Positions 40,971 through 53,493 of a DNA stretch of 64,000 bases are shown here, in pieces. Positions within the stretch are counted from its first letter, which is position 1. Every line of letters begins with the position of its first letter. The stretch is from an uncultured Eubacteriales bacterium (GTDB lineage Bacteria; Bacillota; Clostridia; Christensenellales; Aristaeellaceae): positions 37,352 to 101,351 of the forward strand of contig CACWLP010000005.1 of the NCBI GenBank assembly GCA_902761755.1, given 5' to 3'. The position numbers were made by a program, and so were the translations under genes. A model generated the notes under the pieces. That model saw only the letters and a list, made by a program, of their open reading frames with translations, was not told the DNA's origin and made no database searches.

Positions 40971-42944
40971 ATGGAAGAAAAACGCACGGAACGCAAAGAA
41001 GAAGAGCTGTCTCCCCTCCCCGCCGGCCGGAAAACCGTCGCGGTCTTTATTTCCGCGCTCTATGAGGACATGGTGCGCCAGACCGTGGACGGCCTGCTGG
41101 AGGCCGCCCGGGGAGAAAACGTGAAGCTCGTCTTCTTCGCCAGCTTCGCGGACAACCACACCAGCAAGAATTACGATCTGTATCAGGATTACGACGTGGG
41201 CGACTTTGTGGTGTATCTGCTGCCGGATCTGAAAAAATACGACGCGCTGATCACCTTCGACACCTACATGACCGGCTCCTTCATCGAGCCCATCGACCGG
41301 CTGAAAAAAGCGGTAGCCTGCCCGGTATTCACCCTGGGCACGGTGAAGGAGGGCACCTACAGCATCGTCAACGATCAGGATCTGTCTTTTTCCGAGCTGA
41401 TCGAGCATCTCATCGGCCATCACGGCTGCAGGGACCTCGTCCACGTGGCCGGACCGGTGGAGCGGTCCTTCTGCCTGGAGCGCATCCGGATTTTCCAGAA
41501 CACCCTGTCCGCCCACGGCCTTCCCTGCGGGGACGACCGCATCTACTACGGCACCCTCCGCCCGGATTGCGGCCCGGAGATCGTGGAGAAGATTCTGGCG
41601 CGCTATGCGGAGGAAGGAAAGCGCAGGCTGCCGGAGGCTATCGTCTGCGTCAACGACTATACCGCCATCGGCATCATCAGCGCCTTGGAGGACCGGGGCT
41701 TCCGGGTGCCCCAGGACGTGATCGTCACCGGGTACGACGATATCCTGCGGGCGCAGTTCAACGAGCCGTCCATCACCACCTCCGCCCAGCCCTTCTTCCG
41801 CGTGGGCGAAAATGGCATGAAGCTGGTGCTCAAACGCCTGCGGGGAGAGCCGATAGAAGAAAAAACCGCCGTTCCCGGCGTGCTGTGCCTGCGCCAGTCC
41901 TGCGGATGCGAGCCCGTCTCGGTGCACAAAAAGGATACCATCCGGGAAAAATACATCCGCACGGTCACCAACCTGGAAAACCTGGCCCTGTCCAACACCA
42001 ACCTGATCCTCGGCGGCGCTATCTGCGAAACTGCGGAGGAGCTCTACAGCGAGATCGAAAAGGGCTGCCTGCGGGAAACCGGCTTCCAGGACGCCGCGCT
42101 GTGCCTCATCGACGGGTGGGATCAGAAAAAGCTGATCCAGCACCGGTACACCCTGAAGGAAGAAACCTTCAACGTGGTCTGCGGCACCTGGCACGGCAAG
42201 CCCGTCAGGCGGCAGACCCTGCCCAAGGGCAGGCTGCTCCCGGATGAAATGATGCAGGACGATGTGCCGTACTATATTTTCCCCATCCATCACCTGCAGT
42301 ATTTCCTGGGCTATTTCATTGTGAATCCGCGCCTTAAAGAAATGGAGCAGCTCCACATCAAATCCTGGCTGGTCAGCGTCAGCACGGTGCTGATCAACTG
42401 GCTCTTCCGCAATCAGCTGAAAAACTCCGTGCAGGAGCTTGATTACCTTTACCAGACGGATATGCTCACCGGCCTGTACAACCGCTGGGGCTATTACCGG
42501 TTCTTTGAGAGCTATTACGAGGAATGCCGCGCCGAAGGCGACGAGCTGGCCGTATTCCTCATCGACATGAACAACATGAAAAAAATCAACGACGTCTACG
42601 GCCACGCCGAAGGGGATTTCTGCCTGTGCGTCCTTGCGGAAGCGATGCAGAAAAGCGCCCTGACGGACGAAATCTGCGTCCGCACCGGCGGGGACGAATT
42701 CGTGGTGCTGGCCAAGCACTACGATCAGGAAAAAGAGGAAAGATACCGCCGCCGGATCCGGGAACAGATCGACGAAAGGCTGGAAGCGGCCGGGAAGCAG
42801 TACCAAATCACCGTCAGCATCGGCTGCTGCCGCAGCGTTCCCGGGCCTGTCGCCGACGGCGTTTCGCTCCAGTCCGTGGCGGAAACGTACCTCAAAAAAG
42901 CGGACAAAGCCATGTACCGGGAAAAGAAGCACAAGCCGCAATAA
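40971..42944 (+). CDS. LacI-type sugar-sensor/GGDEF diguanylate cyclase fusion
   Basis: The 657-residue product lacks a signal peptide and membrane segments. Residues 20-310 form a periplasmic-binding-protein-like sensor without the LacI DNA-binding helix-turn-helix (VNDYTAIGIISALEDRGF and VIVTGYDDILRAQF are typical). A middle region (about 325-480) recalls a GAF-like domain. The C-terminus (about 490-650) is a GGDEF domain with DMLTGLYNRWGYY and RTGGDEFVV; the RxxD inhibitory site five residues before GGDEF is absent. Probably a soluble sugar sensor that makes c-di-GMP. The SD is weak (GGGAAAAG). Confidence 0.9.
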   Translation: MEEKRTERKEEELSPLPAGRKTVAVFISALYEDMVRQTVDGLLEAARGENVKLVFFASFADNHTSKNYDLYQDYDVGDFVVYLLPDLKKYDALITFDTYMTGSFIEPIDRLKKAVACPVFTLGTVKEGTYSIVNDQDLSFSELIEHLIGHHGCRDLVHVAGPVERSFCLERIRIFQNTLSAHGLPCGDDRIYYGTLRPDCGPEIVEKILARYAEEGKRRLPEAIVCVNDYTAIGIISALEDRGFRVPQDVIVTGYDDILRAQFNEPSITTSAQPFFRVGENGMKLVLKRLRGEPIEEKTAVPGVLCLRQSCGCEPVSVHKKDTIREKYIRTVTNLENLALSNTNLILGGAICETAEELYSEIEKGCLRETGFQDAALCLIDGWDQKKLIQHRYTLKEETFNVVCGTWHGKPVRRQTLPKGRLLPDEMMQDDVPYYIFPIHHLQYFLGYFIVNPRLKEMEQLHIKSWLVSVSTVLINWLFRNQLKNSVQELDYLYQTDMLTGLYNRWGYYRFFESYYEECRAEGDELAVFLIDMNNMKKINDVYGHAEGDFCLCVLAEAMQKSALTDEICVRTGGDEFVVLAKHYDQEKEERYRRRIREQIDERLEAAGKQYQITVSIGCCRSVPGPVADGVSLQSVAETYLKKADKAMYREKKHKPQ

Positions 42945-42955
42945 ACAAAAAACAT

Positions 42956-43191
42956 GGGGATATTGCAGAAGCCAATCTACAATATCCTGTTTGTTTACAG
43001 GGATATTGGTTTTCAAAAAAAGAATGAGCAACAATGAATACCGGGAAATCGAAGAATCCCGGGGTGGTTTGGAGGGGCCGCAGCCCCTCCAAGCGGAATC
43101 CGCAGCAGCGACCTGTGCGCTGCGAGGAGCATTACGAGAGGAAAAGGCGTTTTATGTCGATCAAATGGAGGATCCATTTGATCGAAGGGGC
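42956..43191 (-). ncRNA. candidate structured RNA/repeat element, copy A
   Basis: Shown in minus orientation to match copy B (52088-52332). In order it has an 11-bp GATCAAATGGA hairpin (43159-43183), a variable hairpin (GCAGCG/CGCTGC), TTGGAGGGGC/GCCCCTCCAA, CCGGG/CCCGG, and a final stem formed by GGATATTG (minus strand 42987-42980) with CAATATCC (42965-42958). That same arm can instead pair with CAATATCC at 43008-43001. It starts about 40 nt after the AEC carrier stop. No protein is encoded. It could be a 3'-UTR RNA, an independent RNA, or a mobile palindromic repeat. Confidence 0.5.
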
Positions 43192-43211
43192 TGTGCAGCA
43201 GCCCCTTTTTT
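43187..43211 (+). terminator. Rho-independent terminator after the GGDEF gene
   Basis: GGGGCTG-tgcag-CAGCCCC followed by TTTTTT. It overlaps the outer end of repeat copy A. Confidence 0.78.
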
Positions 43212-43223
43212 CCGTCTGCCGGA

Positions 43224-44150
43224 TCATCCGACGGCTGCCAGCGCCACGAACCCCAGCAGCGTCACCATCGTGGAAACCGACAGCGCGGAGGACAGATACG
43301 CTCTCTGCTTATCGTCGTTGGAAAAGACGGGCAGCACGTAGGGCGGCGGCAGCAGGAACATGAGCAGCATGGGCTTTTCCCACGCCGCCTGGGGCCACAG
43401 CGCCCGGAACAGAAGCAGCGCGGCGCCGCCCAGCACCGCCATGACGGCCAGCCGCAGGCCCACCGCCTGCAGCGCGGCGCGCCAGGGGATATCCCGCAGC
43501 ACCAAATCGTACCCCACGCTGATCAGGATCAGCGCGCTCACCGGCGCCGCGGCGATCTGGGCGCAGGCGTCCAGGATCGCTTTTCCTTCGCCCATGGCCT
43601 GATACAGCCCCGTGACCCCCAGCAGCACCCCGGCGGCGATGGAAATGATGATGGGCGACAGCGCCATTTCTTTTACGATCCCGGCCGGCGATTTCTTTTT
43701 TCCCTCCGCCTCCCGGGCAAGCAGCGCCTTATAAAGCGTGAACACGAACAGCACCTGCCCCAGGTCGATCCGGGCGAAATCCGCCAGCTTCTCACGGCCG
43801 TAGAGCAGCTCAAACAGGGCGTAGCCCAGCATGCCCGCCTCAAAGCCCGTGGTCAGGAAGGGCAGGAACCGGCTTTGGATCCCCAGCGCTTTCCCGCCGG
43901 CTTTCCCCAGATAAAAAGCGGCGCAGCACAGCGCGAACATGATCAGCGGCACCGCCAGCATGGCCGGGGAATATTCCGCCGACGCAAACGTGCTAAGCAG
44001 CACCGCCGGCAGCCCGATCTGTACCGCCACGGTCTTGAGCGCGTCCACGCCCTGCCGGGTCAGGATCCTTTTCGCCCGGCACAGCATGCCGATCCCCAGC
44101 ATCAGGATCACCGGCAGCACCGTGGAAAGCACCTGAACGCCCCTGTCCAT
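43224..44150 (-). CDS. AEC family transporter (auxin efflux carrier-like)
   Basis: This 308-residue protein has about ten membrane segments with the two-repeat AEC fold; bacterial members export or exchange organic acids such as malate or malonate. It shows GIGMLCRAKRILTRQGVDAL at the N-terminus, MLGYALFELLYG in the first half and the C-terminal LPPPYVLPVFSNDD, in which the Pro-rich bend is a family hallmark. AAGGGGTG precedes the ATG, 3 nt after ogt. It is the last gene of the feo operon. Confidence 0.88.
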   Translation of the reverse strand: MDRGVQVLSTVLPVILMLGIGMLCRAKRILTRQGVDALKTVAVQIGLPAVLLSTFASAEYSPAMLAVPLIMFALCCAAFYLGKAGGKALGIQSRFLPFLTTGFEAGMLGYALFELLYGREKLADFARIDLGQVLFVFTLYKALLAREAEGKKKSPAGIVKEMALSPIIISIAAGVLLGVTGLYQAMGEGKAILDACAQIAAAPVSALILISVGYDLVLRDIPWRAALQAVGLRLAVMAVLGGAALLLFRALWPQAAWEKPMLLMFLLPPPYVLPVFSNDDKQRAYLSSALSVSTMVTLLGFVALAAVG

Positions 44151-44153
44151 ATG

Positions 44154-44660
44154 TCACCCCTTTTTCCGCGCCCCGTCTTTTTCCAGGGCCAACAGCCATT
44201 TTTTCCTCTCCAGGCCCCCGGCGTAGCCCGTCAGCGCCCCGTCCGCACCGATCACCCGGTGGCAGGGCACCATCAGGGAAATGGGGTTGCGCCCCACCGC
44301 GGCCCCCACTGCCCGGGAAGCGGCGCGCCCGGCGCCCAGCCGGGCGGCGATCTCCCCGTAGGTCGCTGTCTGCCCGTACGGGATCAGAAGCAGTTCTGCC
44401 CAGACCGCCCGGGAAAACGCCGTGCCCGCCAGCAGAAGCGGCGGCGGCGCGCCCGGCTCCGTCCCGGCAAAATACTTTTCCAGCCAGCGGTCCGCCGCGT
44501 CGAACGCCGGCAGGGGCATTTCTTTTTCCGTTCCGTCCAGCCCCGCGCCGAAGCGCTTCTGCCCCTGGAACCACAGCCCGGCGACGGCCTCGCCCTCGCC
44601 GGCCATGAGGATCATGCCCAGGGGCGAAAAATAGCGGTGGATCCGGCGCACGGCGCTCAC
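44154..44660 (-). CDS. ogt: methylated-DNA-[protein]-cysteine S-methyltransferase
   Basis: This suicide enzyme removes alkyl groups from O6-guanine in DNA. The 168-residue product has the acceptor Cys in MVPCHRVIGADG, the DNA-binding PYGQTATYGEIAARLG helix-turn-helix and the RAVGAAVGRNP arginine-finger loop. The proposed start is GTG at 44660, overlapping the TGA of the Cys-rich protein gene (GTGA); a GTG at 44651 is possible. The SD is weak, which fits coupling to the upstream gene. Confidence 0.92.
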   Translation of the reverse strand: MSAVRRIHRYFSPLGMILMAGEGEAVAGLWFQGQKRFGAGLDGTEKEMPLPAFDAADRWLEKYFAGTEPGAPPPLLLAGTAFSRAVWAELLLIPYGQTATYGEIAARLGAGRAASRAVGAAVGRNPISLMVPCHRVIGADGALTGYAGGLERKKWLLALEKDGARKKG

Positions 44661-44797
44661 AGCCCGCAGCCGCCCCGCCGGGAGCAGCCTTCGCAGCATC
44701 CGCCGCAGCCGTTTTTCTTTCTCTTCCGCGCGCCCAGCATCCCCAGCGCCGCGATCAGGGCGATCCCCGCCAGGATCAGGATATCCCACAGATTCAT
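44657..44797 (-). CDS. FeoB-associated Cys-rich membrane protein
   Basis: This 46-residue protein has one N-terminal membrane helix (LWDILILAGIALIAALGML), a basic KRKK stop, and a Cys cluster CGGCCEGC followed by a last Cys near the C-terminus. The pattern and the position 13 nt after feoB match the FeoB-associated Cys-rich family (FeoB_associated), which is thought to assist ferrous iron uptake. AAAGGAAC lies about 8 nt before the ATG. Confidence 0.85.
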   Translation of the reverse strand: MNLWDILILAGIALIAALGMLGARKRKKNGCGGCCEGCSRRGGCGL

Positions 44798-44810
44798 GGC
44801 CGTTCCTTTC

Positions 44811-47147
44811 TCAGCCCAAAGCCATGCCGATCAAGCGCACGATCAGCGCCCCGATCCACGCCAGCGTGCATTGCCAGAACACCACGCCCAGGGCCCATCT
44901 GCGCCCCATTTCCCGCCGGATGGCGGTCACCGCCGCCACGCAGGGAGTATACAGCAAACTGAACACCAGCATACACGCCGCGCCCAGGCCGCCCAGGGCT
45001 TCCAGCCCGTCCCGGAACAGCGTCTTCATCACGGAAACCACGCTTTCCTTGGCCATGAAGCCGCTGATCAGGGAAGTGACGATCCGCCAGTCCCCCAGGC
45101 CTACCGGCGCGAACAGCGGGGCGATCAGGCTGGCCGCCGCCGCCAGGATGCTGTCGTGGGGATCCTCCACCAGATTGAAGCGGAAATCAAAGCTCTTGAG
45201 GAACCAGACCACGATGGTGGCGATGAGGATGACGGAAAAGGCGCGGTGCAGAAAATCCTTCGCCTTCTCCCACAGCAGCAGCATCACGTTCCGGGGGCTG
45301 GGAAAGCGGTAATTGGGCAGCTCCATCACGAAGGGCACCGCCTCGCCTCTGAACAGGGTGTTCTTGAACACGTGCGCCGCCAGGATCCCTGCCAGGATGC
45401 CCAGCAGATACAGCCCCGTGATGATCAGCCAGCTCCGCTCCGGGAAAAACACGCTGACGAAGAAGCCGTAGATGGGCAGTTTGGCCGTGCAGCTCATAAA
45501 GGGCGTCAGCAGGATGGTCATTCTGCGGTCCCGGGCGCTGGGCAGCGTCCGGGTGGACATGACGGCGGGCACCGTGCACCCAAAGCCGATGAGCATGGGC
45601 ACGATGCTGCGGCCGGACAGGCCGATGCGGCGCAGCAGCTTATCCATCACGAAGGCCACCCGGGCGATATAGCCGCTGTCTTCCAGAAGGGACAGGAAGA
45701 AAAACAGGATCACGATGATGGGCAGGAAGCTCACCACCGTGCCCACGCCCTCGAAAACGCCGTCGATCACCAGGTTCTGCACCGTCTGGTTGACCCCGGC
45801 GGACCGCATGCCCGCGTCCGCCAGATCCCGGAGGGCGCCGATGCCGTCAGCCAGAAGATCCTGGAAGAAGGGGCCGATCAGGAAGAACGTGAGGAAGAAT
45901 ACCAGGGCCATGATGCCGATAAAGAAAGGAATGGCGGTGTACTTCCCCGTCAGCACCCGGTCCAGGCGCTGGCTGCGGCGGTGTTCCTTGCTCTCGTGGG
46001 GCTTGATCACGCATTCGCCGCACACCCGGCGGATGAAATCGAACCGCATGTCCGCCATGGCGGCGCTGGGATCCAGCCCCCGTTCGGTTTCCATCTGCAG
46101 GATGATATGCTGCAGCATCTCTTTTTCGTTCTGGTCCAGCGCCAGCTTTTCCTCGATCAGCCGGTCGCCCTCGATGAGCTTCCCGGCGGCGAAGCGCAGC
46201 GGCAGGTCCGCCGCCCGGGCGTGATCCTCGATCAGGTGAGCCACGGCGTGCAGCGCCCGGTGCACCGCCCCGCCGTGATCCTCCGCGCCGCAGAAATCCT
46301 GCTCCACGGGGCGTTCCTGATATTTGGCGATGTGCACCGCGTGGCGCACCAGCTCGTCCACGCCTTCGTTCTTCGCCGCGGAAATGGGCACCACCGGCAC
46401 CCCCAGCATCCGCTCCATGGCGTTCACGTCCACGGTGCCGCCGTTGCCCCGCAATTCGTCCATCATGTTCAGCGCCACCACCATGGGCACGTCCATTTCC
46501 AATAGCTGCACCGTCAGGTACAGGTTCCTTTCGATGTTGGTGGCGTCCACGATATTGATGATGGCCCGGGGATGATTTTTCAGCACGAAATCCCGGGAAA
46601 CCAGCTCCTCGCTGGAATAGGGGGACATCGAATAGATCCCCGGCAGGTCGGTGATCAGGGTATCGGCATGGCCGCGGATCACGCCGTCCTTGCGGTCCAC
46701 GGTGACGCCGGGGAAATTGCCCACGTGCTGGTTGGACCCGGTGAGCTGATTGAACAGGGTGGTCTTCCCGCTGTTCTGGTTGCCCACCAGGGCGAAGGTC
46801 AGCTTCGTGCCCTCCGGCAGCGGATCGCCCGTGCCCTTGGGATGGAATTTGCCTTCCTCGCCCAATCCGGGGTGATCGCTGTACCGGCGGCGGTCCTGCT
46901 TCTCCCGGGGCGCCGCCGCCTGCTGCAGCGGCTCCACCTCGATCTTTTCCGCATCCGCCAGCCGCAGCGTCAGCTCATACCCGTGGATCCTCAGCTCCAT
47001 CGGGTCGCCCATGGGGGCCAGCTTGATCGCCGTCACCTCCGCCCCGGGGATCACGCCCATATCCAGAAAATGCTGCCGCAGGGCCCCCTCGCCCCCCACC
47101 GTCCGCACCCGGGCGGTTTTCCCCGGCAGCAGTCCGCTCAGTTTCAT
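44811..47147 (-). CDS. feoB: ferrous iron transporter FeoB with fused FeoA domain
   Basis: This 778-residue protein imports Fe2+. An N-terminal FeoA SH3-like domain (1-75; LLPGKTARVRTVGGEG, FLDMGVIPGAEV) is fused to the FeoB G domain (G1 GNQNSGKT near residue 120, G3 DLPG, G4 NMMDE) and to the membrane core with the Gate motifs GFGCTVPAVMSTRTL and FMSCTAKLPIY. No separate feoA is found. The ATG at 47147 has AAGGAG about 10 nt upstream; a leader hairpin (GGGCGGCG/CGCCGCCC, 47168-47189) and a TAATAT -10 box (47202-47197) lie before it. Confidence 0.95.
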   Translation of the reverse strand: MKLSGLLPGKTARVRTVGGEGALRQHFLDMGVIPGAEVTAIKLAPMGDPMELRIHGYELTLRLADAEKIEVEPLQQAAAPREKQDRRRYSDHPGLGEEGKFHPKGTGDPLPEGTKLTFALVGNQNSGKTTLFNQLTGSNQHVGNFPGVTVDRKDGVIRGHADTLITDLPGIYSMSPYSSEELVSRDFVLKNHPRAIINIVDATNIERNLYLTVQLLEMDVPMVVALNMMDELRGNGGTVDVNAMERMLGVPVVPISAAKNEGVDELVRHAVHIAKYQERPVEQDFCGAEDHGGAVHRALHAVAHLIEDHARAADLPLRFAAGKLIEGDRLIEEKLALDQNEKEMLQHIILQMETERGLDPSAAMADMRFDFIRRVCGECVIKPHESKEHRRSQRLDRVLTGKYTAIPFFIGIMALVFFLTFFLIGPFFQDLLADGIGALRDLADAGMRSAGVNQTVQNLVIDGVFEGVGTVVSFLPIIVILFFFLSLLEDSGYIARVAFVMDKLLRRIGLSGRSIVPMLIGFGCTVPAVMSTRTLPSARDRRMTILLTPFMSCTAKLPIYGFFVSVFFPERSWLIITGLYLLGILAGILAAHVFKNTLFRGEAVPFVMELPNYRFPSPRNVMLLLWEKAKDFLHRAFSVILIATIVVWFLKSFDFRFNLVEDPHDSILAAAASLIAPLFAPVGLGDWRIVTSLISGFMAKESVVSVMKTLFRDGLEALGGLGAACMLVFSLLYTPCVAAVTAIRREMGRRWALGVVFWQCTLAWIGALIVRLIGMALG

Positions 47148-47250
47148 CGTCCGTCCGCTCCTTATCCGGGCGGCGTCTTTTCGCCGCCCCAGGACAATAT
47201 TAGACAAAACTTACGGATTTCCTTGTGAACGGGAAAAATAAAATCGCAAC

Positions 47251-47290
47251 CCTCTCCGCCCCTCCGGGGCACCTCCCCCGGCGGGGGAGG
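47251..47290. repeat. GC-rich palindromic repeat, copy 1
   Basis: Reads CCTCTCCGCCCCTCCGGGGC then ACCTCCCCC-gg-CGGGGGAGGT: two adjoining hairpins, CCCC/GGGG and ACCTCCCCC/CGGGGGAGGT. Confidence 0.8.
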
Positions 47291-47374
47291 TAAAATCAGC
47301 GATACCCTGCCGAACCATCTCCCGCATACTGAAAGTACATTGGTATGTGTATTCCCCTGGGGGGGGCAAGTTTA

Positions 47375-47417
47375 GCTCCCCCGCTGGGGGGGAGCTGGCG
47401 CACAGCGCCTGAGGGGG
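47375..47417. repeat. GC-rich palindromic repeat, partial inverted copy
   Basis: GCTCCCCC and GGGGGAGC form a hairpin (47375-47395), followed by GGCGCacaGCGCC-like and TGAGGGGGC, which recalls the complement of the direct copies. Confidence 0.6.
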
Positions 47418-47448
47418 CATAGATGCTATCCAGCAAACGATCTCAATG

Positions 47449-47489
47449 CCCTCTCCGCCCCTTCGGGGCACCTCCCCCAGAGGGGGAGG
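47449..47489. repeat. GC-rich palindromic repeat, copy 2
   Basis: CCCTCTCCGCCCCTTCGGGG followed by CACCTCCCCC-aga-GGGGGAGG. Nearly identical to copy 3, which begins 3 bp later. Confidence 0.85.
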
Positions 47490-47492
47490 AAA

Positions 47493-47533
47493 CCCTCTCC
47501 GCCCCTTCGGGGCACCTCCCCCAAAAGGGGAGG
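47493..47533. repeat. GC-rich palindromic repeat, copy 3
   Basis: Same unit as copy 2, with CCTCCCCC-aaaa-GGGGAGG as its second hairpin. Confidence 0.85.
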
Positions 47534-47750
47534 ATTTAGAAAGCAACTGCCAGAAGCAACTGCCAAAAGGCTAAGAAAGCAGCCGCCAAAAAGCAGAGCA
47601 AGCAGCCGTCAAATCATAGAACAGAAGCGTGCCTCCGGCTGTATCGCCGCAAGCGTCTGAAGGCAAAGCAAATCCTTTTGATCGCCGCCGAAACCCGTGC
47701 GCGGGCAAAGCGCCGGACACGGAATGAAAATATCGCCGGGGCGTGGGGGG

Positions 47751-47957
47751 TCAACGGAACAGCGTGCACCCCATCTCCCGGAACTCCCGGATCTTCCGGC
47801 GCAGGGCGTCCTCCTCCACGCAGAAGCGCGCCGCCAGGCAGGTCAGGCAGTAAAACGCTTCCGCCCCGCGGTTCACCATCTTTTTCGTCAGGGCGATCTC
47901 GTCCTTTTCCAATATTCGTCCGCAGGATACGCAGCGCCCGTCCTCCTTTTTATCCAT
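47751..47957 (-). CDS. small zinc-ribbon-like protein (two CxxC pairs)
   Basis: The 68-residue product has CVSCG near residue 9 and CLTC near residue 37, spaced as in a zinc ribbon, then a basic helix (ALRRKIREFREMGC). It is predicted cytoplasmic. The start overlaps the alpha-galactosidase stop by 8 nt (ATGGATAA), so it is translated from the same message. No specific function is recognisable; nucleic-acid binding or a structural role is possible. Confidence 0.75.
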   Translation of the reverse strand: MDKKEDGRCVSCGRILEKDEIALTKKMVNRGAEAFYCLTCLAARFCVEEDALRRKIREFREMGCTLFR

Positions 47958-49140
47958 GGGCTTTGACCAGGCGGCAGAGATACAAACGCATATCGTGGCC
48001 GGGCACCGTGGGGTTGAAATAATCGAACTTCGCGCCCAGGTTTTCCCCGGTGAACACGTCGCGGATTTCCAGCGCCCAGCCGCCGGCCACCGGCAGCCCC
48101 AGATCCACCAATTCGCAGTGGATGCAGCTTTCCGCTTCGGACATATTCACGTACGCCAGGGCAAATTCGTTATCGGACAGATGGCGGAAGAAGGTGAAGG
48201 ACGAATCCGGGATCATCCGCCAGGGCATCTCCCCTTCCTTGGCGTCTGGGTTGCCGGTAAACACCGATCCCCGGCGGATCAGGTAAGGCGGGCGGCATTC
48301 CTCGTCCTGGTCGATGCGCAGAAGGTCCTTGTTCTGCATGAGGGCCTGATATTCCGGCGCCACGGCGCGCAGGTCCGCCCCCATCATCAGCGGCACGCCC
48401 GCCAGGCACCACAGGGCAAACTGCATCCGGTATTCCTCATAGGTGCACGTTTTTCCCACGCCCACGTTGCCCTTGCCGCCCATGCCCACGGTGAGCATGT
48501 CCATATCGTTGAAGCAGCCCGCGCCGCTCATGCACAGGTTGTCGATCTGGGATTTGAAAATATCGGTGAAGGAAACGTAATTGTCCATGATGTCGCCGGT
48601 GGAGCGGTACATCTGCGCGCCTACGGAGCGCATCCACTTCCAGGGCTCCTTCTGCCCCCAGTTGCACGCGGAAAACAGGATCTCCCGCCCCGTGGCCTTC
48701 AGCGCCATGCTCATGGTCTGATACCGGGTGCGGCAGTCACCGGTCTGGGGGAAATTGCAGAAATCGTATTTCAGGAAGTCCACGCCCCAGGAAGCGAAGG
48801 TGGCGGCGTCCGTAAATTCATGGTCGTAGCTGGAGGGATAGCCCGCGCAGGTCATGACCCCGGCGCAGGAATACATGCCGAATTTGAGCCCCTTCCCGTG
48901 CACGTAATCCGCCAGAGCCTTCATCCCGTGGGGAAATTTTTCCGGGTCCGGCACCAGCAGCCCGTTTTCGTCCCGGTCCCGGAGGGACCAGCAGTCGTCG
49001 ATCACCAGGTATTCGTATCCCGCGTCCCGGTAGCCCTTGTCCACCATGTAATCCGCCATTTCCCGGATCAGGGCGTCGCTGATCTTATCGCCGAAGGTAT
49101 TCCAGGAATTCCATCCCAGGGGCGGCCGTTTTGCCAGCAT
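47950..49140 (-). CDS. GH27 family alpha-galactosidase-like glycosidase
   Basis: This 396-residue enzyme has no signal peptide. GH27 motifs: PPLGWNSWNTFGDKIS at the N-terminus, YLVIDDCWSLRD, KFGMYSCAGVMTCAGYPSS, DFLKYDFCNFP with the nucleophile Asp, and YRSTGDIMDNY with the acid/base Asp. It would release terminal alpha-galactose, or a related alpha-linked sugar, from imported oligosaccharides; GH27 also includes other specificities. The ATG at 49140 follows AAGGAG at 10 nt, which decides against an upstream in-frame ATG. Confidence 0.9.
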   Translation of the reverse strand: MLAKRPPLGWNSWNTFGDKISDALIREMADYMVDKGYRDAGYEYLVIDDCWSLRDRDENGLLVPDPEKFPHGMKALADYVHGKGLKFGMYSCAGVMTCAGYPSSYDHEFTDAATFASWGVDFLKYDFCNFPQTGDCRTRYQTMSMALKATGREILFSACNWGQKEPWKWMRSVGAQMYRSTGDIMDNYVSFTDIFKSQIDNLCMSGAGCFNDMDMLTVGMGGKGNVGVGKTCTYEEYRMQFALWCLAGVPLMMGADLRAVAPEYQALMQNKDLLRIDQDEECRPPYLIRRGSVFTGNPDAKEGEMPWRMIPDSSFTFFRHLSDNEFALAYVNMSEAESCIHCELVDLGLPVAGGWALEIRDVFTGENLGAKFDYFNPTVPGHDMRLYLCRLVKAHG

Positions 49141-49187
49141 GGGTGCATTTCTCCTTCCGCGCCGCAAACGCGGCTTTTTCTCATTAC

Positions 49188-49217
49188 ATTATACCAAACG
49201 GGCCCGCCCTCCCGCAA
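49188..49217 (-). promoter_or_regulatory. promoter of the GH27 gene
   Basis: On the minus strand TTGCGG (49217-49212), 18 bp and an extended TGGTATAAT -10. A GCCGC/GCGGC hairpin follows in the leader (49161-49174). Confidence 0.75.
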
Positions 49218-49271
49218 GGCTTTCCCGGCCGTTCAGGCGGGGAAGGCGCAAGAAAAATTTTCCACGGCGGA

Positions 49272-49301
49272 TTGACTTTGTTCCCGCGCCGGGCTTATGA
49301 T
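49272..49301 (+). promoter_or_regulatory. promoter of the isomerase-dehydrogenase-oxidoreductase operon
   Basis: TTGACT (49272-49277), 18 bp and TATGAT (49296-49301). The GH27 and trio promoters diverge about 55 bp apart. Confidence 0.72.
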
Positions 49302-49338
49302 GAAACCGGACGGAATAAAAGAACAGGAGGCGGTTTTC

Positions 49339-50181
49339 ATGCTGCTTGGCGGAACCGTTGCGGGCGCCTTCGACGCCCCGGAAGCCTGGGAGCGGCTGCT
49401 GGCCGCGTCCCGCTTCAAGGCCGTTACGGCGCCTTTTGACTGCCGCACGCCCCGGGGGGAAGCCGCGCAATACGTTTCCGCGGCAAAACGCCGGGGGGCG
49501 GTGATCGCGGAGGTGGGCGTATGGCGCAACTGCCTGGACCCGGATCCGGCAAAAGCCAAAGAAGCCCTGCGCTATGCCAAGGATCAGCTGGCCCTGGCGG
49601 AGGAATGGGGCGTGCCCTGCTGCGTCAATATCGCCGGCACCCCCGGCGCGGCGGGCTGGGACGCCGCGGACAAAAGCAATTTCACCCCCGAAACCTACCG
49701 CCGCACCGTCGCCTCCATCCGGGAGATCATCGACGACGTGCGGCCGGCGCGCGCGTTTTACTGCATCGAGCCCATGCCCTGGATGGTGCCGGACAGCCCG
49801 GAGGCGTATCTGCGGCTTCTGGAGGATGTGGACAGGCCGCAGTTCGCCGCGCATATGGATTTCGTGAATATGATCAACTGTCCCCGCCGCGCCCTGGCCC
49901 CGGAGGATTTCGTGGAGGAGTGCTTTTCCCGTCTGGCCCCGTATATCAAAAGCACCCATATAAAGGACAGCCGGCTGCACCCCACCAGGCTGACCGCGGT
50001 GCTGGAGGAATGCAGCCCCGGGGAAGGGGATCTGGACTTTGAAAAGATCCTGGGGATCCTGGACAGGTATCTGCCCCCCGACGCCCCGGTGCTGCTGGAG
50101 CACATGCGCACCTTTGAGGAATATCAGGCCGCATACGCCTATCTTTCCGGCGCCGCCGCCCGGGCGGGCGTCAGCATCTGA
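49339..50181 (+). CDS. sugar phosphate isomerase/epimerase family TIM-barrel protein
   Basis: This 280-residue xylose-isomerase-like TIM barrel has metal ligands at FYCIEPMPWM (Glu), AHMDFVNM (Asp), KSTHIKDSR (His) and VLLEHMRTF (Glu), so a divalent metal site is intact. Relatives isomerise or epimerise keto-sugars; some cleave 3-keto-glycosides. The ATG at 49339 follows AGGAGG and is preferred over an earlier in-frame ATG at 49297 that lies in the promoter. First gene of a three-gene operon with two oxidoreductases. Confidence 0.85.
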   Translation: MLLGGTVAGAFDAPEAWERLLAASRFKAVTAPFDCRTPRGEAAQYVSAAKRRGAVIAEVGVWRNCLDPDPAKAKEALRYAKDQLALAEEWGVPCCVNIAGTPGAAGWDAADKSNFTPETYRRTVASIREIIDDVRPARAFYCIEPMPWMVPDSPEAYLRLLEDVDRPQFAAHMDFVNMINCPRRALAPEDFVEECFSRLAPYIKSTHIKDSRLHPTRLTAVLEECSPGEGDLDFEKILGILDRYLPPDAPVLLEHMRTFEEYQAAYAYLSGAAARAGVSI

Positions 50182-50201
50182 AAAAAGGAGGAAACCGCTT
50201 T

Positions 50202-51092
50202 ATGGCCGACAGCCGTCCCCTGCCCGGCGATTCCATCGCCCTCAACCGCCGGTATCTGGATCATCTGCTGGTGGAGGGCCGCATCGTGGGCGCGGCGCAC
50301 CCCACCGCGGAAACGCGCCTGCTGGGCTGCGCCTTTTCCACCCCCATCGTCACCGCGGCCCTGAGCCATCTGAAGCGCGGCATGGCCGCCTTCGCCCTGG
50401 GCGCAAAGCAGGCCGGGGCCGCCTGCTGTATCGGCATGGGCAGCTGCGAGGAAATGGAATCCGCCCTGTCCACCGGCGCGAAGATCGTCAAGATCATCAA
50501 GCCCTACGCCGACCCGGATCTGATCTTTGAACGGCTGGCGTGCGCCAAGGCCCACGGGGCTGTCGCCGTGGGCATGGACGTGGAGCATGCCGTGAACGTG
50601 GCCGACGACCGGGATTCCCTGGTGGCGGGCTATCCGATGAAGCTGCCCACGCAGCAGGAGCTGAAAACGTATATCGGCGCCGCGGGGCTGCCCTTTCTCA
50701 TCAAGGGCGCGCTGAGCGTCCGCGACGCCCTGACCTGCCGGGATCTGGGCTGCGCCGGCGTGATCCTCAGCCACCACAACGGCCTGATGCGCTGGGCCGT
50801 TCCCCCCGCCATGCTGCTGCCGGAGATCCGCCAGGCCGTGGGGCGGGATTTCCTGCTGGTGGCCGACGGCGGCATCCGGGACGGCTTCGACGCTTTCAAG
50901 GCCCTGGCTCTGGGGGCGGACGCCGTGTCCGTGGGCAGGGCGCTGATGGCGCCCCTGGACGAAGGCGGCCCCGAAAAAATGGCGGACGTCCTCCGCGCCA
51001 TGACGGACGAAATCAAGGCCATGCTGGTGCGCACCGGCTCCCCGGACCCGGCTCATATCGACCCCGCGGTGATTCATCCCGTCGACTGGTAA
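50202..51092 (+). CDS. FMN-dependent alpha-hydroxy-acid dehydrogenase-like protein
   Basis: This 296-residue TIM barrel is of the lactate/glycolate oxidase family but shorter than the usual 350-400. FMN-site motifs are FSTPIVTAAL, FLIKGALSVRDAL (the Lys that contacts FMN), ILSHHNG (in place of SNHGGRQ, with the catalytic His), and DGGIRDGFDAFKALALGADA with VSVGRAL for FMN phosphate. It would oxidise a 2-hydroxy acid or a related sugar acid. AAAGGAGG precedes the ATG, 20 nt after the TIM-barrel gene. Confidence 0.85.
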   Translation: MADSRPLPGDSIALNRRYLDHLLVEGRIVGAAHPTAETRLLGCAFSTPIVTAALSHLKRGMAAFALGAKQAGAACCIGMGSCEEMESALSTGAKIVKIIKPYADPDLIFERLACAKAHGAVAVGMDVEHAVNVADDRDSLVAGYPMKLPTQQELKTYIGAAGLPFLIKGALSVRDALTCRDLGCAGVILSHHNGLMRWAVPPAMLLPEIRQAVGRDFLLVADGGIRDGFDAFKALALGADAVSVGRALMAPLDEGGPEKMADVLRAMTDEIKAMLVRTGSPDPAHIDPAVIHPVDW

Positions 51093-51110
51093 CACGAAAG
51101 GAGCATCGTT

Positions 51111-52085
51111 ATGGAAAAGATCCGTTGGGGCGTCCTGGGCACGGCGGATATCGCCCGGTGGCAGACCATCCCCGGCATGCGGGAGGCGGAGAACTGCGCG
51201 CTGTACGCCATTTCGGGCCGCAGCATCGAAAAAGCCCGGCAGTACCAGGCGGAATTCGGCTTTGAAAAGGCGTACGGCAGCTATGACGCGCTTTTGTCCG
51301 ATCCCGCGGTGCAGGCGGTGTACGTACCCCTGCCCAACGATCTGCACCGGGAATGGGTGATCCGGGCGCTGGAAGCAAAAAAGCACGTGCTGTGCGAAAA
51401 GCCCCTGGCGCTGACGGAAGCCCAGGCGCGGGACATGTTCCGCGCCGCGGAGGAAAACGGCGTGCATCTCATGGAGGCATACGCTTACCTGCACAATCCC
51501 TTCGTCCGGGCGGTGAAGGCAGAATTGGACGCCGGCGCCATCGGAAACGTGCTGTACCTGGAATCCGCCTTCGTGGGCGGGCCGCCCCGGGAGGGCAATT
51601 ACCGCGCCCGGCGGGACGCCGGCGGCGGCGCGCAGTACGATCTGGGCTGCTATCCCCTGAGCATGGCGCTGTGGATGCTGGACAGGGAGCCGCTCCGGGT
51701 CAGCGCTTCCGCCCTGTTCGCCGACAGCGGCATCGACCTGGCCGCCAACGTGCTTTTGTCCTTTGAGGGCGGGGCCGTGGCGAATCTCAGCTGCGGCATG
51801 CTGCTTCGCGCCAACCGCCTGGACCGCTTCCATCTCTGCGGCGACCGGGGCGAAATCTTCTCCGCCTTCCAGTTCAATCAGCCGGGCGAGATCGCCTACA
51901 CCCTGGTGCGGGACGGCAAAGCGGAAGAAAAGCGCGTCACCGCGCCCCAGAATTACCGCCTGGAGGTGGAGCAGCTGGGCCGCTGCATCCTCAAGGGCGA
52001 AGCCCCCGCCGTCTCCCCCGCGTTTTCATTGCGGGTGGCCCGGGTGCAGGACCGCATCCTGGACGCCATCGGCTTCTGGAAATAA
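51111..52085 (+). CDS. Gfo/Idh/MocA family NAD(P)-dependent oxidoreductase
   Basis: This 324-residue enzyme has an N-terminal Rossmann fold (WGVLGTADIARWQT, near residue 6), the family EKP motif in VLCEKPLALTE, and the catalytic His/Asp region GGGAQYDLGCYPLSMALWML (Asp and Tyr/His position). It oxidises a sugar or cyclitol hydroxyl. AAAGGAG precedes the ATG, 18 nt after the FMN dehydrogenase gene. The repeat element copy B begins 3 nt after its stop. Confidence 0.93.
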   Translation: MEKIRWGVLGTADIARWQTIPGMREAENCALYAISGRSIEKARQYQAEFGFEKAYGSYDALLSDPAVQAVYVPLPNDLHREWVIRALEAKKHVLCEKPLALTEAQARDMFRAAEENGVHLMEAYAYLHNPFVRAVKAELDAGAIGNVLYLESAFVGGPPREGNYRARRDAGGGAQYDLGCYPLSMALWMLDREPLRVSASALFADSGIDLAANVLLSFEGGAVANLSCGMLLRANRLDRFHLCGDRGEIFSAFQFNQPGEIAYTLVRDGKAEEKRVTAPQNYRLEVEQLGRCILKGEAPAVSPAFSLRVARVQDRILDAIGFWK

Positions 52086-52087
52086 CC

Positions 52088-52332
52088 GCCCCTTCGATCA
52101 AATGGATCCTCCATTTGATCGACATAAAACGCCTTTTCCTCTCGTCCCTGCGGGACTCCCGGGCGGAAAAGGCGCAAGGAAAGCATCCGCTTGGAGGGGC
52201 TTTGGGCCCCTCCAAACCACCCCGGGGTTTTCGTTTTTCCCGGTATTCACTGTTGCTCGTTCTTTTATGAAAACCAATATCCCTGTAAACAAAGAGGATG
52301 TTGCAGATTGGCTTTAAGCAACATCCTCTTTT
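52088..52332 (+). ncRNA. candidate structured RNA/repeat element, copy B
   Basis: Same element as copy A in inverse orientation. It has the GATCAAATGGA hairpin (52096-52120), a different variable hairpin (GTCCC-tgc-GGGAC), TTGGAGGGGC/GCCCCTCCAA, CCGGGG/TCCCGG, and the alternative pair: CAATATCC (52275-52282) or CAACATCC (52319-52326) for GGATGTTG (52296-52303). Compared with copy A the last stem changes G-C to A-T, keeping the pair. It ends in a terminator. It begins 3 nt behind the oxidoreductase stop. No protein is encoded. Confidence 0.5.
52294..52332 (+). terminator. terminator at the end of element copy B
   Basis: GAGGATGTTGC and GCAACATCCTC form an 11-bp stem with a 13-nt loop, followed by TTTT. 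It would close the oxidoreductase transcript after the element. Confidence 0.75.
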
Positions 52333-52344
52333 GATTCTGGTTTT

Positions 52345-53493
52345 TTACTTGGCGGGCGATATCGGATCGCCTTTGGGCTTTATGAATTTCAGCCACTCCG
52401 GCAGATGGATCTTCCCCTTGCCGCGGACGGACAGGATCACGCTCTGCAGCATGATGAACAGGCCAAGCATGGCGCCGCTGGCGATATTCTGCCAGAAGGA
52501 CTCGTTCACGTCGCTCAGGCCGATGATCTTGGTGATGGTCGCCAGGATCATGACCCCGAAGAACGTGCCGAACACATTGCCCACGCCGCCGGTAAGCAGC
52601 GTGCCGCCGATGATGGAAGCGGCGATGGCGTCCATTTCGCCCCGGGCCGCCACGGTGGTTTTGGCGGAAGGCGCGTGCATCAGGAAAATGAAGCCGGCCA
52701 GGCCGCTGAGCAGGCCGCTGATCACGTAGCTGATGAAGCGGGTGCGCTTCACGTTGATGCCCAGCATCATGGCGCTTTGCTGGTTGCCGCCGATGGCGTA
52801 GATATTTCTGCCCAGTTTGGCATAGCGCAGCAGCAGGAACACCAGCACCAGCACCAGCAGGGCCACCAGCGTGCCGATCTCAAGATCCGTGGAAACGACG
52901 GTCTGCGTGACCTTGCCCAGCTTGACCTTTTCCGTTACCTCCGTGAACCAGGGAATATTGATCCTGGCGTCCCACATGGCCGTGACCGCCCCCGAGGCGT
53001 TCACATCCACCGGCTTGCCGCCGGGGCTGACGATGGTGGTAAGCCCGCGGGCCAGGATCATGCCGGCCAGGGTCACGATGAAGGGCTGGATCTCCAGATG
53101 GCTGATCAGAAAGCCCTGGAACGCGCCGAAGGCCAGGCCGATCCCCAGGGCGATCCCCAGGGAGATCAGGATGTTGAGGAAGGGGCTGGCGACGGCGCTT
53201 TTCTGCAGGTAAAGCGCGTCCACCATGCAGGTCAGGCTCACCACGCCGGCCACGCTGATGTTGATGCCGCCGCCGATCATGACCACCGTCAGGGAACAGG
53301 CGATGATGATCAGCATGGAGTTTTCATTCAGCAGGTCGAAGAACATCTTGGGGTTGCGGAACCCTTTGGCGTTGAAAATCACCGCCGCGGCGTACATCGC
53401 AATGAAGATCCCGATGCTGACCAGCATCAGCAGCATGGTATTGGATAAGGGCTCTTTCTTTCCCGTCAGGGTTTTCGCTTTCTGCACCGTCAT
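52345..53493 (-). CDS. yjfF: sugar ABC transporter permease, YjfF-like
   Basis: This 382-residue CUT2 permease of the galactofuranose type has about ten membrane segments, VMIGGGINISVAGVVSLTC near residue 72 and GEMDAIAASIIGGTLLTGGVG near residue 285 (ATPase contact). A soluble insert (about 170-215) lies between membrane segments. The ATG follows the ytfT-like stop by 1 nt. E. coli YjfF pairs with YtfT as a heterodimer; the same arrangement is seen here. Confidence 0.9.
   Translation of the reverse strand: MTVQKAKTLTGKKEPLSNTMLLMLVSIGIFIAMYAAAVIFNAKGFRNPKMFFDLLNENSMLIIIACSLTVVMIGGGINISVAGVVSLTCMVDALYLQKSAVASPFLNILISLGIALGIGLAFGAFQGFLISHLEIQPFIVTLAGMILARGLTTIVSPGGKPVDVNASGAVTAMWDARINIPWFTEVTEKVKLGKVTQTVVSTDLEIGTLVALLVLVLVFLLLRYAKLGRNIYAIGGNQQSAMMLGINVKRTRFISYVISGLLSGLAGFIFLMHAPSAKTTVAARGEMDAIAASIIGGTLLTGGVGNVFGTFFGVMILATITKIIGLSDVNESFWQNIASGAMLGLFIMLQSVILSVRGKGKIHLPEWLKFIKPKGDPISPAK

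Follow-up and report, generated by a model that had tools for sequence, protein, structure and literature searches.

We find that the two structured elements in the window (the whole 64,000-nucleotide stretch of DNA analysed here) belong to a repeat present at 38 places in its genome (probably a Clostridia MAG of ruminant-gut origin), some of them fragments, counted from genome-wide matches with the pieces of one place merged; the two-copy duplication described in an earlier note made from the sequence alone is therefore set aside. The repeat is likely a lineage of IS1182-type MITE that inserts into terminators and that has here turned into a dispersed terminator repeat, with window copies A and B as decayed members. 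This reading draws on the copy number, position and covariation of the repeat, together with the transposon-type ends and terminator duplications that we observe in relatives.

Copies A and B and their modules

The two copies are indeed present near the positions first reported and in inverse orientation, copy A at 42956-43205 on the minus strand and copy B at 52088-52332 on the plus strand; the start of copy A stands at 42956, and its end moves from 43191 to 43205. Each copy occupies a convergent gap, as the earlier note had it, with stop codons 18 and 11 bp away from copy A and 2 and 16 bp away from copy B, so that neither switches a downstream gene. A near-identical end hairpin had also been claimed for both, but in copy B the first hairpin, hpL, has no left arm. 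The features are as follows.

42956..43205, minus: copy A, whole element (locus L012; genome-wide match G000:C5:80320-80542, minus)
43187..43205, minus: copy A hpL, GGGGCTGCTGCACAGCCCC; an A run lies outside it, and it resembles a terminator for the gene at 43224-44150, which reads towards hpL
43157..43185, minus: copy A hairpin hp2, TCGATCAAATGGA/TCCATTTGATCGA; its slot in the array is that of the IS1182-type left-end hairpin of relatives
43099..43128, minus: copy A module 5 (GCAGCG/CGCTGC hairpin), missing in copy B
43069..43093, minus: copy A module 6, CTTGGAGGGGC/GCCCCTCCAA
42956..42989, minus: copy A right-end hairpin hpR, A-T version; terminator-like
52088..52332, plus: copy B, whole element, without the left arm of hpL; begins 2 bp past the Gfo/Idh stop
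52094..52122, plus: copy B hairpin hp2
52130..52179, plus: copy B module 3, core hairpin; stem CGCCTTTTCC/GGAAAAGGCG, loop sides TCTCG and CTCCCGGGC
52190..52215, plus: copy B module 6 hairpin
52294..52328, plus: copy B right-end hairpin hpR, G-C version, then TTTT; terminator-like for Gfo/Idh
40971..42944, plus: gene for a LacI-type sensor + GGDEF protein; stop 11 bp from copy A
43224..44150, minus: gene named AEC carrier in the earlier note, with 0 NCBIfam families; stop 18 bp from copy A
51111..52085, plus: Gfo/Idh-type oxidoreductase gene; stop 2 bp ahead of copy B
52345..53493, minus: sugar ABC transporter permease gene; stop 16 bp past copy B hpR

Copies of this genome vary by deletions of whole modules, with lengths that are not frame-keeping, and they are short and carry no transposase gene. 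In copy A, losses have removed the 3' half of module 3 and almost the whole of module 4, and in copy B most of module 4 together with module 5. Complete copies, for example L013, hold both of the hairpins that had been read as one covarying middle hairpin, different in sequence yet kept in both window copies: GCAGCG/CGCTGC is module 5 and GTCCC/GGGAC is the tip of module 3. Since these are different modules, their pairing is not covariation, and the candidate is dropped.

Position at gene ends and terminator features

Gene orientation is given for 36 of the 38 places. A called gene stands on each side of 29 copies, in 20 convergent, 5 ++, 4 -- and 0 divergent arrangements (two-sided p = 8e-7 against an assumed 25%), and at least one gene ends at every one of these copies; the stop codons lie close to the copies of this genome, at a median of 11 bp on the left and 17 bp on the right. 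If the right-hand gene ends at a copy, an A run stands to the left of that copy (p 0.003), and if the left-hand gene does so, a T run stands to its right (p 0.013; both one-sided Mann-Whitney tests), the exceptions being L049 and L020, with few or no T on the right. Because these runs lie where transcription of a gene would pass out of the outer hairpins, the ends have the look of a two-way intrinsic terminator: in the sequence, the arriving transcript encounters a GC-rich hairpin and then a T run, the criterion of a bidirectional intrinsic terminator.

Judged from these features, the repeat at gene ends probably also serves as a transcription stop signal, with hpL, hpR and the flanking A/T runs forming a putative two-way terminator for the adjoining, mostly convergent, genes. 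A terminator consensus scan with a loop limit of 8 gives two sites at copy A and none at copy B, whose hpR is not among its sites. A consensus scan for promoter-like sites finds none in copy A or copy B.

Relatives with IS1182-type ends beside duplicated terminators

A covariance-model search, of the kind that the earlier note had proposed, finds the core beyond this genome: model R1 has matches in 7 of 297 sampled genomes, this one included, in other genera and in three families of the order. Module 3 of copy B scores 79.3 bits against R1, a model whose rows include copies of its own type. BLAST gives 58 matches in genome G045 and 82 in genome G046, with several matches per copy.

The unit in relatives is ~191 bp long and has ends like CAGnnTGTCGAAAAA, resembling IS1182-family insertion sequences. 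Terminal repeats of this type are seen in G318, G306 and G021, where they were compared with the IS1182 elements L290 and L292, and plasmids of Thermocaproicibacter and Subdoligranulum carry IS1182-family insertion sequences with matching ends; no IS1182-type ends are seen in the G111 copies, and the right end is missing in two G318 copies, L270 and L272. Three G318 copies are flanked by a duplicated local terminator, with flank alignment scores of 21, 22 and 18 compared to 6-12 for mismatched pairs. These are the three with a duplicated palindrome among the four distinct both-ended copies of G318 and G214, the exception being L277 (G214, left end decayed), which has two different palindromes and no duplication. 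The IS1182 transposase locus L211 (357.8 bits) is flanked on both sides by terminator palindrome copies, and a Cetobacterium element with a homologous transposase lies between two copies of a terminator palindrome; the palindromes on the two sides of the Thermocaproicibacter IS1182 differ.

Known transposon or MITE ends with target-site duplications, which the earlier note held would speak against its reading, are thus found in relatives but not at copies A and B, which are without intact IS1182-type ends and target duplication, and no target duplication is seen around other copies of this genome that were looked at. Of the right end, the copies here retain just a relic, CCCCGGGGTTCTTCGAT (CCCCGGGGTTTTTCGACA-like in G318), so the descent of the window copies rests on shared modules. 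The second-type copies L173 and L044 of this genome have an IS1182-type right end, TTTTTCGACAAACTG / TTTGTCGACAGTCTG, immediately before the hpL palindrome. None of modules 3-6 is seen next to the IS1182 transposases that were inspected, and the MITE is therefore not a simple deletion product.

We propose that the ancestral unit, of which relatives keep nearly intact examples, was a MITE of this size, with such IS1182-family ends around a hairpin array of modules 3-6, and that its left end would fold into a hairpin of its own, hp2. An IS1182-family transposase acting in trans would insert the MITE into intrinsic-terminator palindromes, placing host terminator on both sides so that transcription would still stop. 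The window genome would then hold a derivative that captured hpL and hpR as its end hairpins and spread to its present copy number. Paired stem changes may owe less to RNA selection than to the matching of DNA palindromes, whether by template switching or through a constraint set by the transposase or by replication. Such a history suggests a way in which a lineage of transposons can do almost no damage when it inserts at gene ends, by taking a terminator as target and leaving a terminator on each side, and it makes folded-terminator recognition by IS1182-type transposases, and how palindrome arms stay matched, accessible to experiment. It is possible, if unlikely, that the hairpin array is a selected structured RNA or single-stranded DNA element of at least three families, travelling between IS1182-type ends, colonising terminators and re-supplying the one in which it lands.

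Orthologous sites, transposases and carriers

The own-type element is absent in 28 of 28 loci with orthologous flanking genes, covering 5 sites, apart from one stray match of 33 bp (L229). It is missing at the 3' end of the LacI-type sensor + GGDEF orthologues in 5 of 5 relatives examined and of the Gfo/Idh orthologues in 3 of 3. Flanks were read by eye and the comparison repeated with BLAST, which did not detect the control L273, so the absence holds for the own-type element and not for distant forms. One site is occupied both in this genome and in G046, and is either an old insertion or a repeated one.

These sites bear on an insertion like that of IS1272, in which the target stem-loop would be removed and its A/T runs left, with no duplication. 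Inverted-repeat-replacing transposition is proposed for IS1272, a member of the IS1182 family, in the available excerpt of its description (PMC5678879), and the stem-loop target, the copies here without duplication, the A/T runs outside their ends and the short distances to stops are all as expected from it. However, relatives of the repeat duplicate the palindrome rather than replace it, and no true empty site keeping both neighbours is found among the 28 orthologous loci of the 5 sites; we regard this route as doubtful.

The IS1182 transposase (PF13751) is over its cut-off in 6 of 17 genomes searched and is absent from this genome (G000), G045 and G046; G000 is 73% complete, so its absence there carries little weight. 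An IS6-like reading of the outer ends, GGGGCTGTTGCA, was also considered. Searches for exact matches only give 26 occurrences of this 12-mer in the genome, 25 at element ends and one in a second-type copy at C7:101, while in G045 all 19 of 19 exact matches of a 14-mer fall on the left ends of elements. With all exact matches so accounted for, no autonomous element with those exact ends is seen. A 23-base core pattern occurs in 0 viral contigs, copy B has no match in phages, and a G318 copy has none in plasmids.

Folding, covariation and RNA readings

Relative to dinucleotide shuffles, copy B folds with z of -7.46 and -6.05 on its two strands, and copy A with -6.75. Core stems contain 54 double-changed cells versus 11.9 after shuffling, and covariation exceeds all shuffles in the main measures, and all slides, in counts over copies that share descent and are not independent. 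The compensatory change in the last stem, A-T in copy A and G-C in copy B, is real, as the earlier note supposed, and forms part of this far larger covariation. In the module-3 main stem covariation is strictly Watson-Crick, with 0 G-T cells among 250, and in hpR A-C mismatches (5 here, 8 in G045) outnumber G-T (2 here, 0 in G045), the opposite of the pattern expected under plus-strand RNA selection.

A structured RNA, either a 3'-UTR or stand-alone, with folds kept by transcript selection and spread by its usefulness to the preceding gene, could explain covariation beyond the controls, an architecture kept across three families, a gene end at each of the 29 two-sided copies, and a folding z of about -6 to -7.5 on either strand. 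We nevertheless find it improbable, as good folding on both strands, the scarcity of G-T pairs, the free deletion of whole modules, absence at the 28 orthologous loci, transposon-type ends and target duplications in relatives, and the promoter scan of copies A and B all argue against it. A known Rfam RNA is rejected, with 0 matches at gathering score within the window. Relaxed searches (E up to 1 and 5; 5 and 7 further loci) give only sub-threshold hairpin models in the element, these being animal microRNA and similar models far under their gathering scores; the best is mir-981 (E 3.3e-4, 25.9 bits compared to a gathering score of 51). The earlier note had offered a 3'-UTR, a stand-alone RNA or an RNA-like mobile repeat, and only the last is retained, in the form of a mobile DNA repeat sited at the 3' ends of genes.

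Searches for novel structured RNAs rely on covariation. The repeat passes covariation controls yet acts like a mobile DNA palindrome, and so may be a counter-example and a calibrator; if the structured-element reading is true, its strictly Watson-Crick covariation would offer a test case, provided by nature, of a DNA process that yields textbook RNA covariation statistics.

Comparison with known repeats

The relatives of the window copies share with the IS1182 family and its MITEs a CAGnnTGTCGAAAAA-like end, a left-end hairpin, and an adjoining terminator palindrome with its duplication. They differ from the IS1182 elements examined, which are without the covarying hairpin array common to three families, and the window copies differ further in that their ends are lost or replaced. 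The ISMac2-related MITEs of Methanosarcina acetivorans are 160 and 169 bp long in the portion of the report available (PMC3852290).

Pneumococcal BOX, RUP and SPRITE are described, in the accessible parts of two accounts, as dispersed structured intergenic repeats, apparently parasitic, that insert into one another, with SPRITE being terminator-like (PMC3049150, PMC10969869). The present repeat is likewise dispersed, structured, intergenic and apparently parasitic, but occurs in another host, at gene 3' ends, and with IS1182-type ends in relatives. We know of no sequence relation between them.

REP/BIME elements fall into GTAG and CGTC superfamilies and are sited between convergent genes (PMC3733652), and REPs are targets of insertion sequences (PMC1525189), as far as the excerpts of these sources go. 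A REP/BIME-type repeat moved by a RAYT (Y1) transposase would fit palindromic units behind and between convergent genes, palindromes as landing sites, and window copies without target duplication. This origin is very unlikely, however: Y1_Tnp (PF01797) has one borderline match in the genome, at 22.9 bits (24.4 with neighbours) for a cut-off of 23, and none in six genomes, G045-G050, that also carry the repeat, and no RAYT association is found. Units are ~190 bp or more, the copies here measuring 105-371 bp end to end, and relatives have IS1182-type ends.

Alternative pairing and alignments

A two-state RNA switch, as the earlier note envisaged, in which the shared arm pairs with an upstream CAATATCC or with the terminator arm, is extremely improbable: most copies permit both pairings, but the upstream and shared arms do not covary, the shared and terminator arms of L028 changed together (CTG/CAG) with the alternative pairing mismatched there, computed folds choose hpR, and the copies are without a downstream gene to control. 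Over 31 rows from this genome, with the L009 row out of register, and 13 from G045, CAATATCC is nearly invariant and does not follow changes in the shared arm, and so provides no evidence for a switch.

Alignment A1 started from 33 core stretches found by pattern, of which 25 were aligned, without L009, L011, L016 and five rows of G047; the arms of module 4 are misaligned in A1, so this module does not enter the covariation counts, and no claims rest on the whole-core RNAalifold structure. A2 comprises 16 hand-picked module-3 stretches. A3 drew on 30 loci, of which 29 yielded a stretch and 25 entered the alignment; L022 was omitted for an indel, L274 and L278 because they are identical to rows already included, and L033 for no particular reason. 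Several copies of the repeat sit at the ends of contigs, and such repeats seem to break contigs in metagenome-assembled genomes.

Copies of the hairpin array differ by whole-module loss

Sequence search of the genome assembly holding the window (here the own genome, G000; 2.22 Mb in 46 contigs, 73% complete) locates the repeat at 38 places, counted after merging same-place rows and excluding reverse-strand self-matches and one weak row (C14:31470; C, contig); some of these places are fragments or are truncated at contig ends. The extracted loci yield a full array plan, given here in order after the two copies in the window.

Copy A, 42956-43205, minus strand: array of hairpins
Copy B, 52088-52332, plus strand: array of hairpins
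hpL, first hairpin: GGGGCTGTTGCACAGCCCC
hp2, second hairpin: TCGATCAAATGGA..TCCATTTGATCGA
Module 3, after hp2: CGCCTTTTCC..GGAAAAGGCG
Module 4, after module 3: GCATTTTTGC..GCAAAAATGC
Module 5, after module 4: GCAGCG..CGCTGC
Module 6, after module 5: TTGGAGGGGC..GCCCCTCCAA
AT-richer stretch, between module 6 and hpR
hpR, last hairpin: GAGGATGTTGC..GCAACATCC(C/T)C

We find that the main difference among copies is the loss of whole modules. Copy A retains only the first half of module 3 and almost none of module 4; in copy B, little of module 4 is left, and module 5 and the left hpL arm are missing. Since A and B are missing different modules, their "middle hairpins", which the earlier note took for one hairpin of differing sequence, are different modules, and that reading is not borne out. 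At two loci from other sampled genomes (L249, G046:C12; L248, G011:C8), other palindromic units sit inside the module-3 and module-6 loops.

Array ends have the form of terminators facing both ways

Gene calls, made with a codon model that had been trained on nine genes of the window, cover the surroundings of 36 of the 38 places. Among 29 copies with genes on both sides, 20 are convergent, 5 ++, 4 -- and none divergent, a convergent excess (two-sided p = 8e-7 for an assumed share of 25%); in the window, 5 of 48 called gene pairs are convergent. Genes that end at the element do so at a median stop-to-element distance of 11 bp on its left side (range -13 to 95) and 17 bp on its right side (10 to 305). 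If the right-hand gene ends at the element, A runs are found beyond the left end (one-sided p 0.003; three convergent copies have no left end to score); if the left-hand gene does so, T runs are found beyond the right end (one-sided p 0.013), with L049, L020 and L041 as exceptions (0 to 3 T of 8). Together with these A/T runs, the outer hairpins are shaped like intrinsic terminators for both directions, and transcription would be expected to terminate at the array ends. A simple terminator scan returns two sites at copy A and none at copy B, whose hpR loop exceeds the scan's loop limit of 8.

Covariation of the module-3 hairpin

In an alignment of module 3 from 16 hand-picked copies, 25 cells are changed on both sides versus 8.8 in shuffles, while further pair types (9) are not above the shuffles' 9.9. 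A larger alignment, with 25 copies that represent at least six genera, has 97.2% of cells paired, 54 cells changed on both sides versus 11.9 (sd 2.6) in shuffles and 0 to 11 in slid structures, and a double change in 11 of 13 pairs; the module-3 hairpin is therefore real and conserved. Module 4, whose arms resisted automatic alignment, was left out of these counts, and one predicted pair of module 5 is U-G in 9 of 25 rows.

The ten-pair main stem of module 3 has no G-T in 250 cells, and in hpR A-C mismatches outnumber G-T (5 to 2 in the own genome, 8 to 0 in genome G045). If a plus-strand RNA were under selection, G-U should be tolerated and A-C should not. Template switching has been described as matching palindrome arms at the DNA level (PMC8794818), and such matching may offer an alternative to RNA selection for the array stems.

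Most IS1182-type ends adjoin a palindrome

Relatives carry a unit of about 191 bp, probably a MITE, with IS1182-type ends. In genome G318 (family f10) the unit is 190-191 bp, starts ..GTGTCGAAAAAG and ends TTTTTCGACAGAC..; three of five copies have the local terminator palindrome on both sides (scores 21, 22 and 18; 6-12 for mismatched pairs) and two lack the right end (L260, L266 and L267 are copies fetched twice). The G214 copy has different palindromes on its two sides and a decayed left end. A Thermocaproicibacter IS1182-family element has the same ends (CAGCCTGTCGAAAAAG..TTCTTCGACAATCTG), each adjoining a palindrome, the two palindromes differing from each other; the left end of a Subdoligranulum IS1182-family element (CAGCCTGTCGAAAAAGG; transposase 66.5% identical over 73% of that of Thermocaproicibacter) also directly adjoins a palindrome, and the first bases of both elements fold into an hp2 counterpart. 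Two further elements, one with an IS1182 transposase (NF033551, 357.8 bits) and one with a homologous transposase (56.8% over 89%), are each bracketed by two copies of a 22-base palindrome with T after it.

L211 (G020:C61), 384-1967: IS1182-family insertion sequence, both flanks AGCCTTGCATTTTTGCAAGGCT
L293: Cetobacterium somerae plasmid element, flanked by AAGCCTAGTTTTAACTAGGCTT

A foldable palindrome directly adjoins most of the MITE- and IS-type ends compared, but not the left end of L171. In the own genome, second-type copies L173 (G000:C7:1-120) and L044 (G000:C8:4647) retain an IS1182-type right end (TTTTTCGACAAACTG / TTTGTCGACAGTCTG) immediately before the hpL palindrome; no IS1182 transposase is found in this 73% complete assembly.

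Most likely, an IS1182-type transposase acting in trans puts the unit into terminator palindromes; insertion would double the terminator and so be nearly neutral. A derivative with acquired end hairpins has probably multiplied in the window's species and would now supply terminators for many convergent gene pairs; inter-module deletions, with now and then another palindrome nested in a module loop (G046:C12, G011:C8), would account for the variety of copies. IS1182-related MITEs (PMC3852290) and stem-loop targeting, by IS1272 (PMC5678879), are already published; for the array and its conserved inside we found no description in the open-licence PMC literature, and REPs (PMC3733652, PMC1525189) and pneumococcal repeats (PMC3049150, PMC10969869) are the nearest functional parallels.

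Distribution among relatives

We compared orthologous loci by the 3' end of the neighbouring gene for copy A (5 relatives), copy B (3), C20:21678 (6) and C22:60105 (7), and for C20:7475 (7), where the gene's 5' side faces the element. Apart from a stray match of 33 bp, the own-type element, the form seen in the own genome, is in none of these 28 loci; as the neighbour on the other side is not conserved, they are not strict empty sites. Against this evidence for mobility counts one site, behind the same gene, that is occupied in the own genome (C4:123991) as well as in G046 (C125), reflecting either an old or a repeated insertion; its left stem reads GGGGCTG/CAGCCCC in one genome and GGGGTTG/CAACCCC in the other, which makes the change compensatory. 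By eye, four of the seven relatives (L240, L241, L244, L245) have large palindromic arrays that differ in sequence behind their orthologue of the gene preceding G000:C22:60105, which suggests that 3'-end hairpin arrays of more than one family occur in the genus.

A covariance model of module 3 (R1), run under stricter filters on 297 genomes sampled from the order, finds the module in 7: the own genome, G306 (same family, other genus), G111 (family f33) and four of family f10, with no match in two other members of the window's genus within that sample. A 23-base core pattern matches 50 stretches in a collection described as 84,980 species genomes, from which near relatives of the window may be absent, and none in viral contigs. 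All 50 are titled Clostridia, Clostridiales or Christensenellaceae MAGs and labelled goat, roe deer, red deer or RUG; its named relatives suggest that the own genome belongs to ruminant-gut Clostridia.

In G046 (L193, C7:3500-8600), the Gfo/Idh orthologue and a gene similar to 43224-44150 (67% DNA identity) face each other about 1 kb apart; their window counterparts are 7 kb apart, each beside a repeat copy, and repeat-mediated rearrangement is possible. Among the other loci, L036 (G021:C38) has a T-box leader at 847-1088 that scores 83.2 bits, short of its gathering score (93), and L275 (G298:C42) has a Ribosomal protein L10 leader at 616-743 (69.1 bits; gathering score 44), immediately after a copy of the element.
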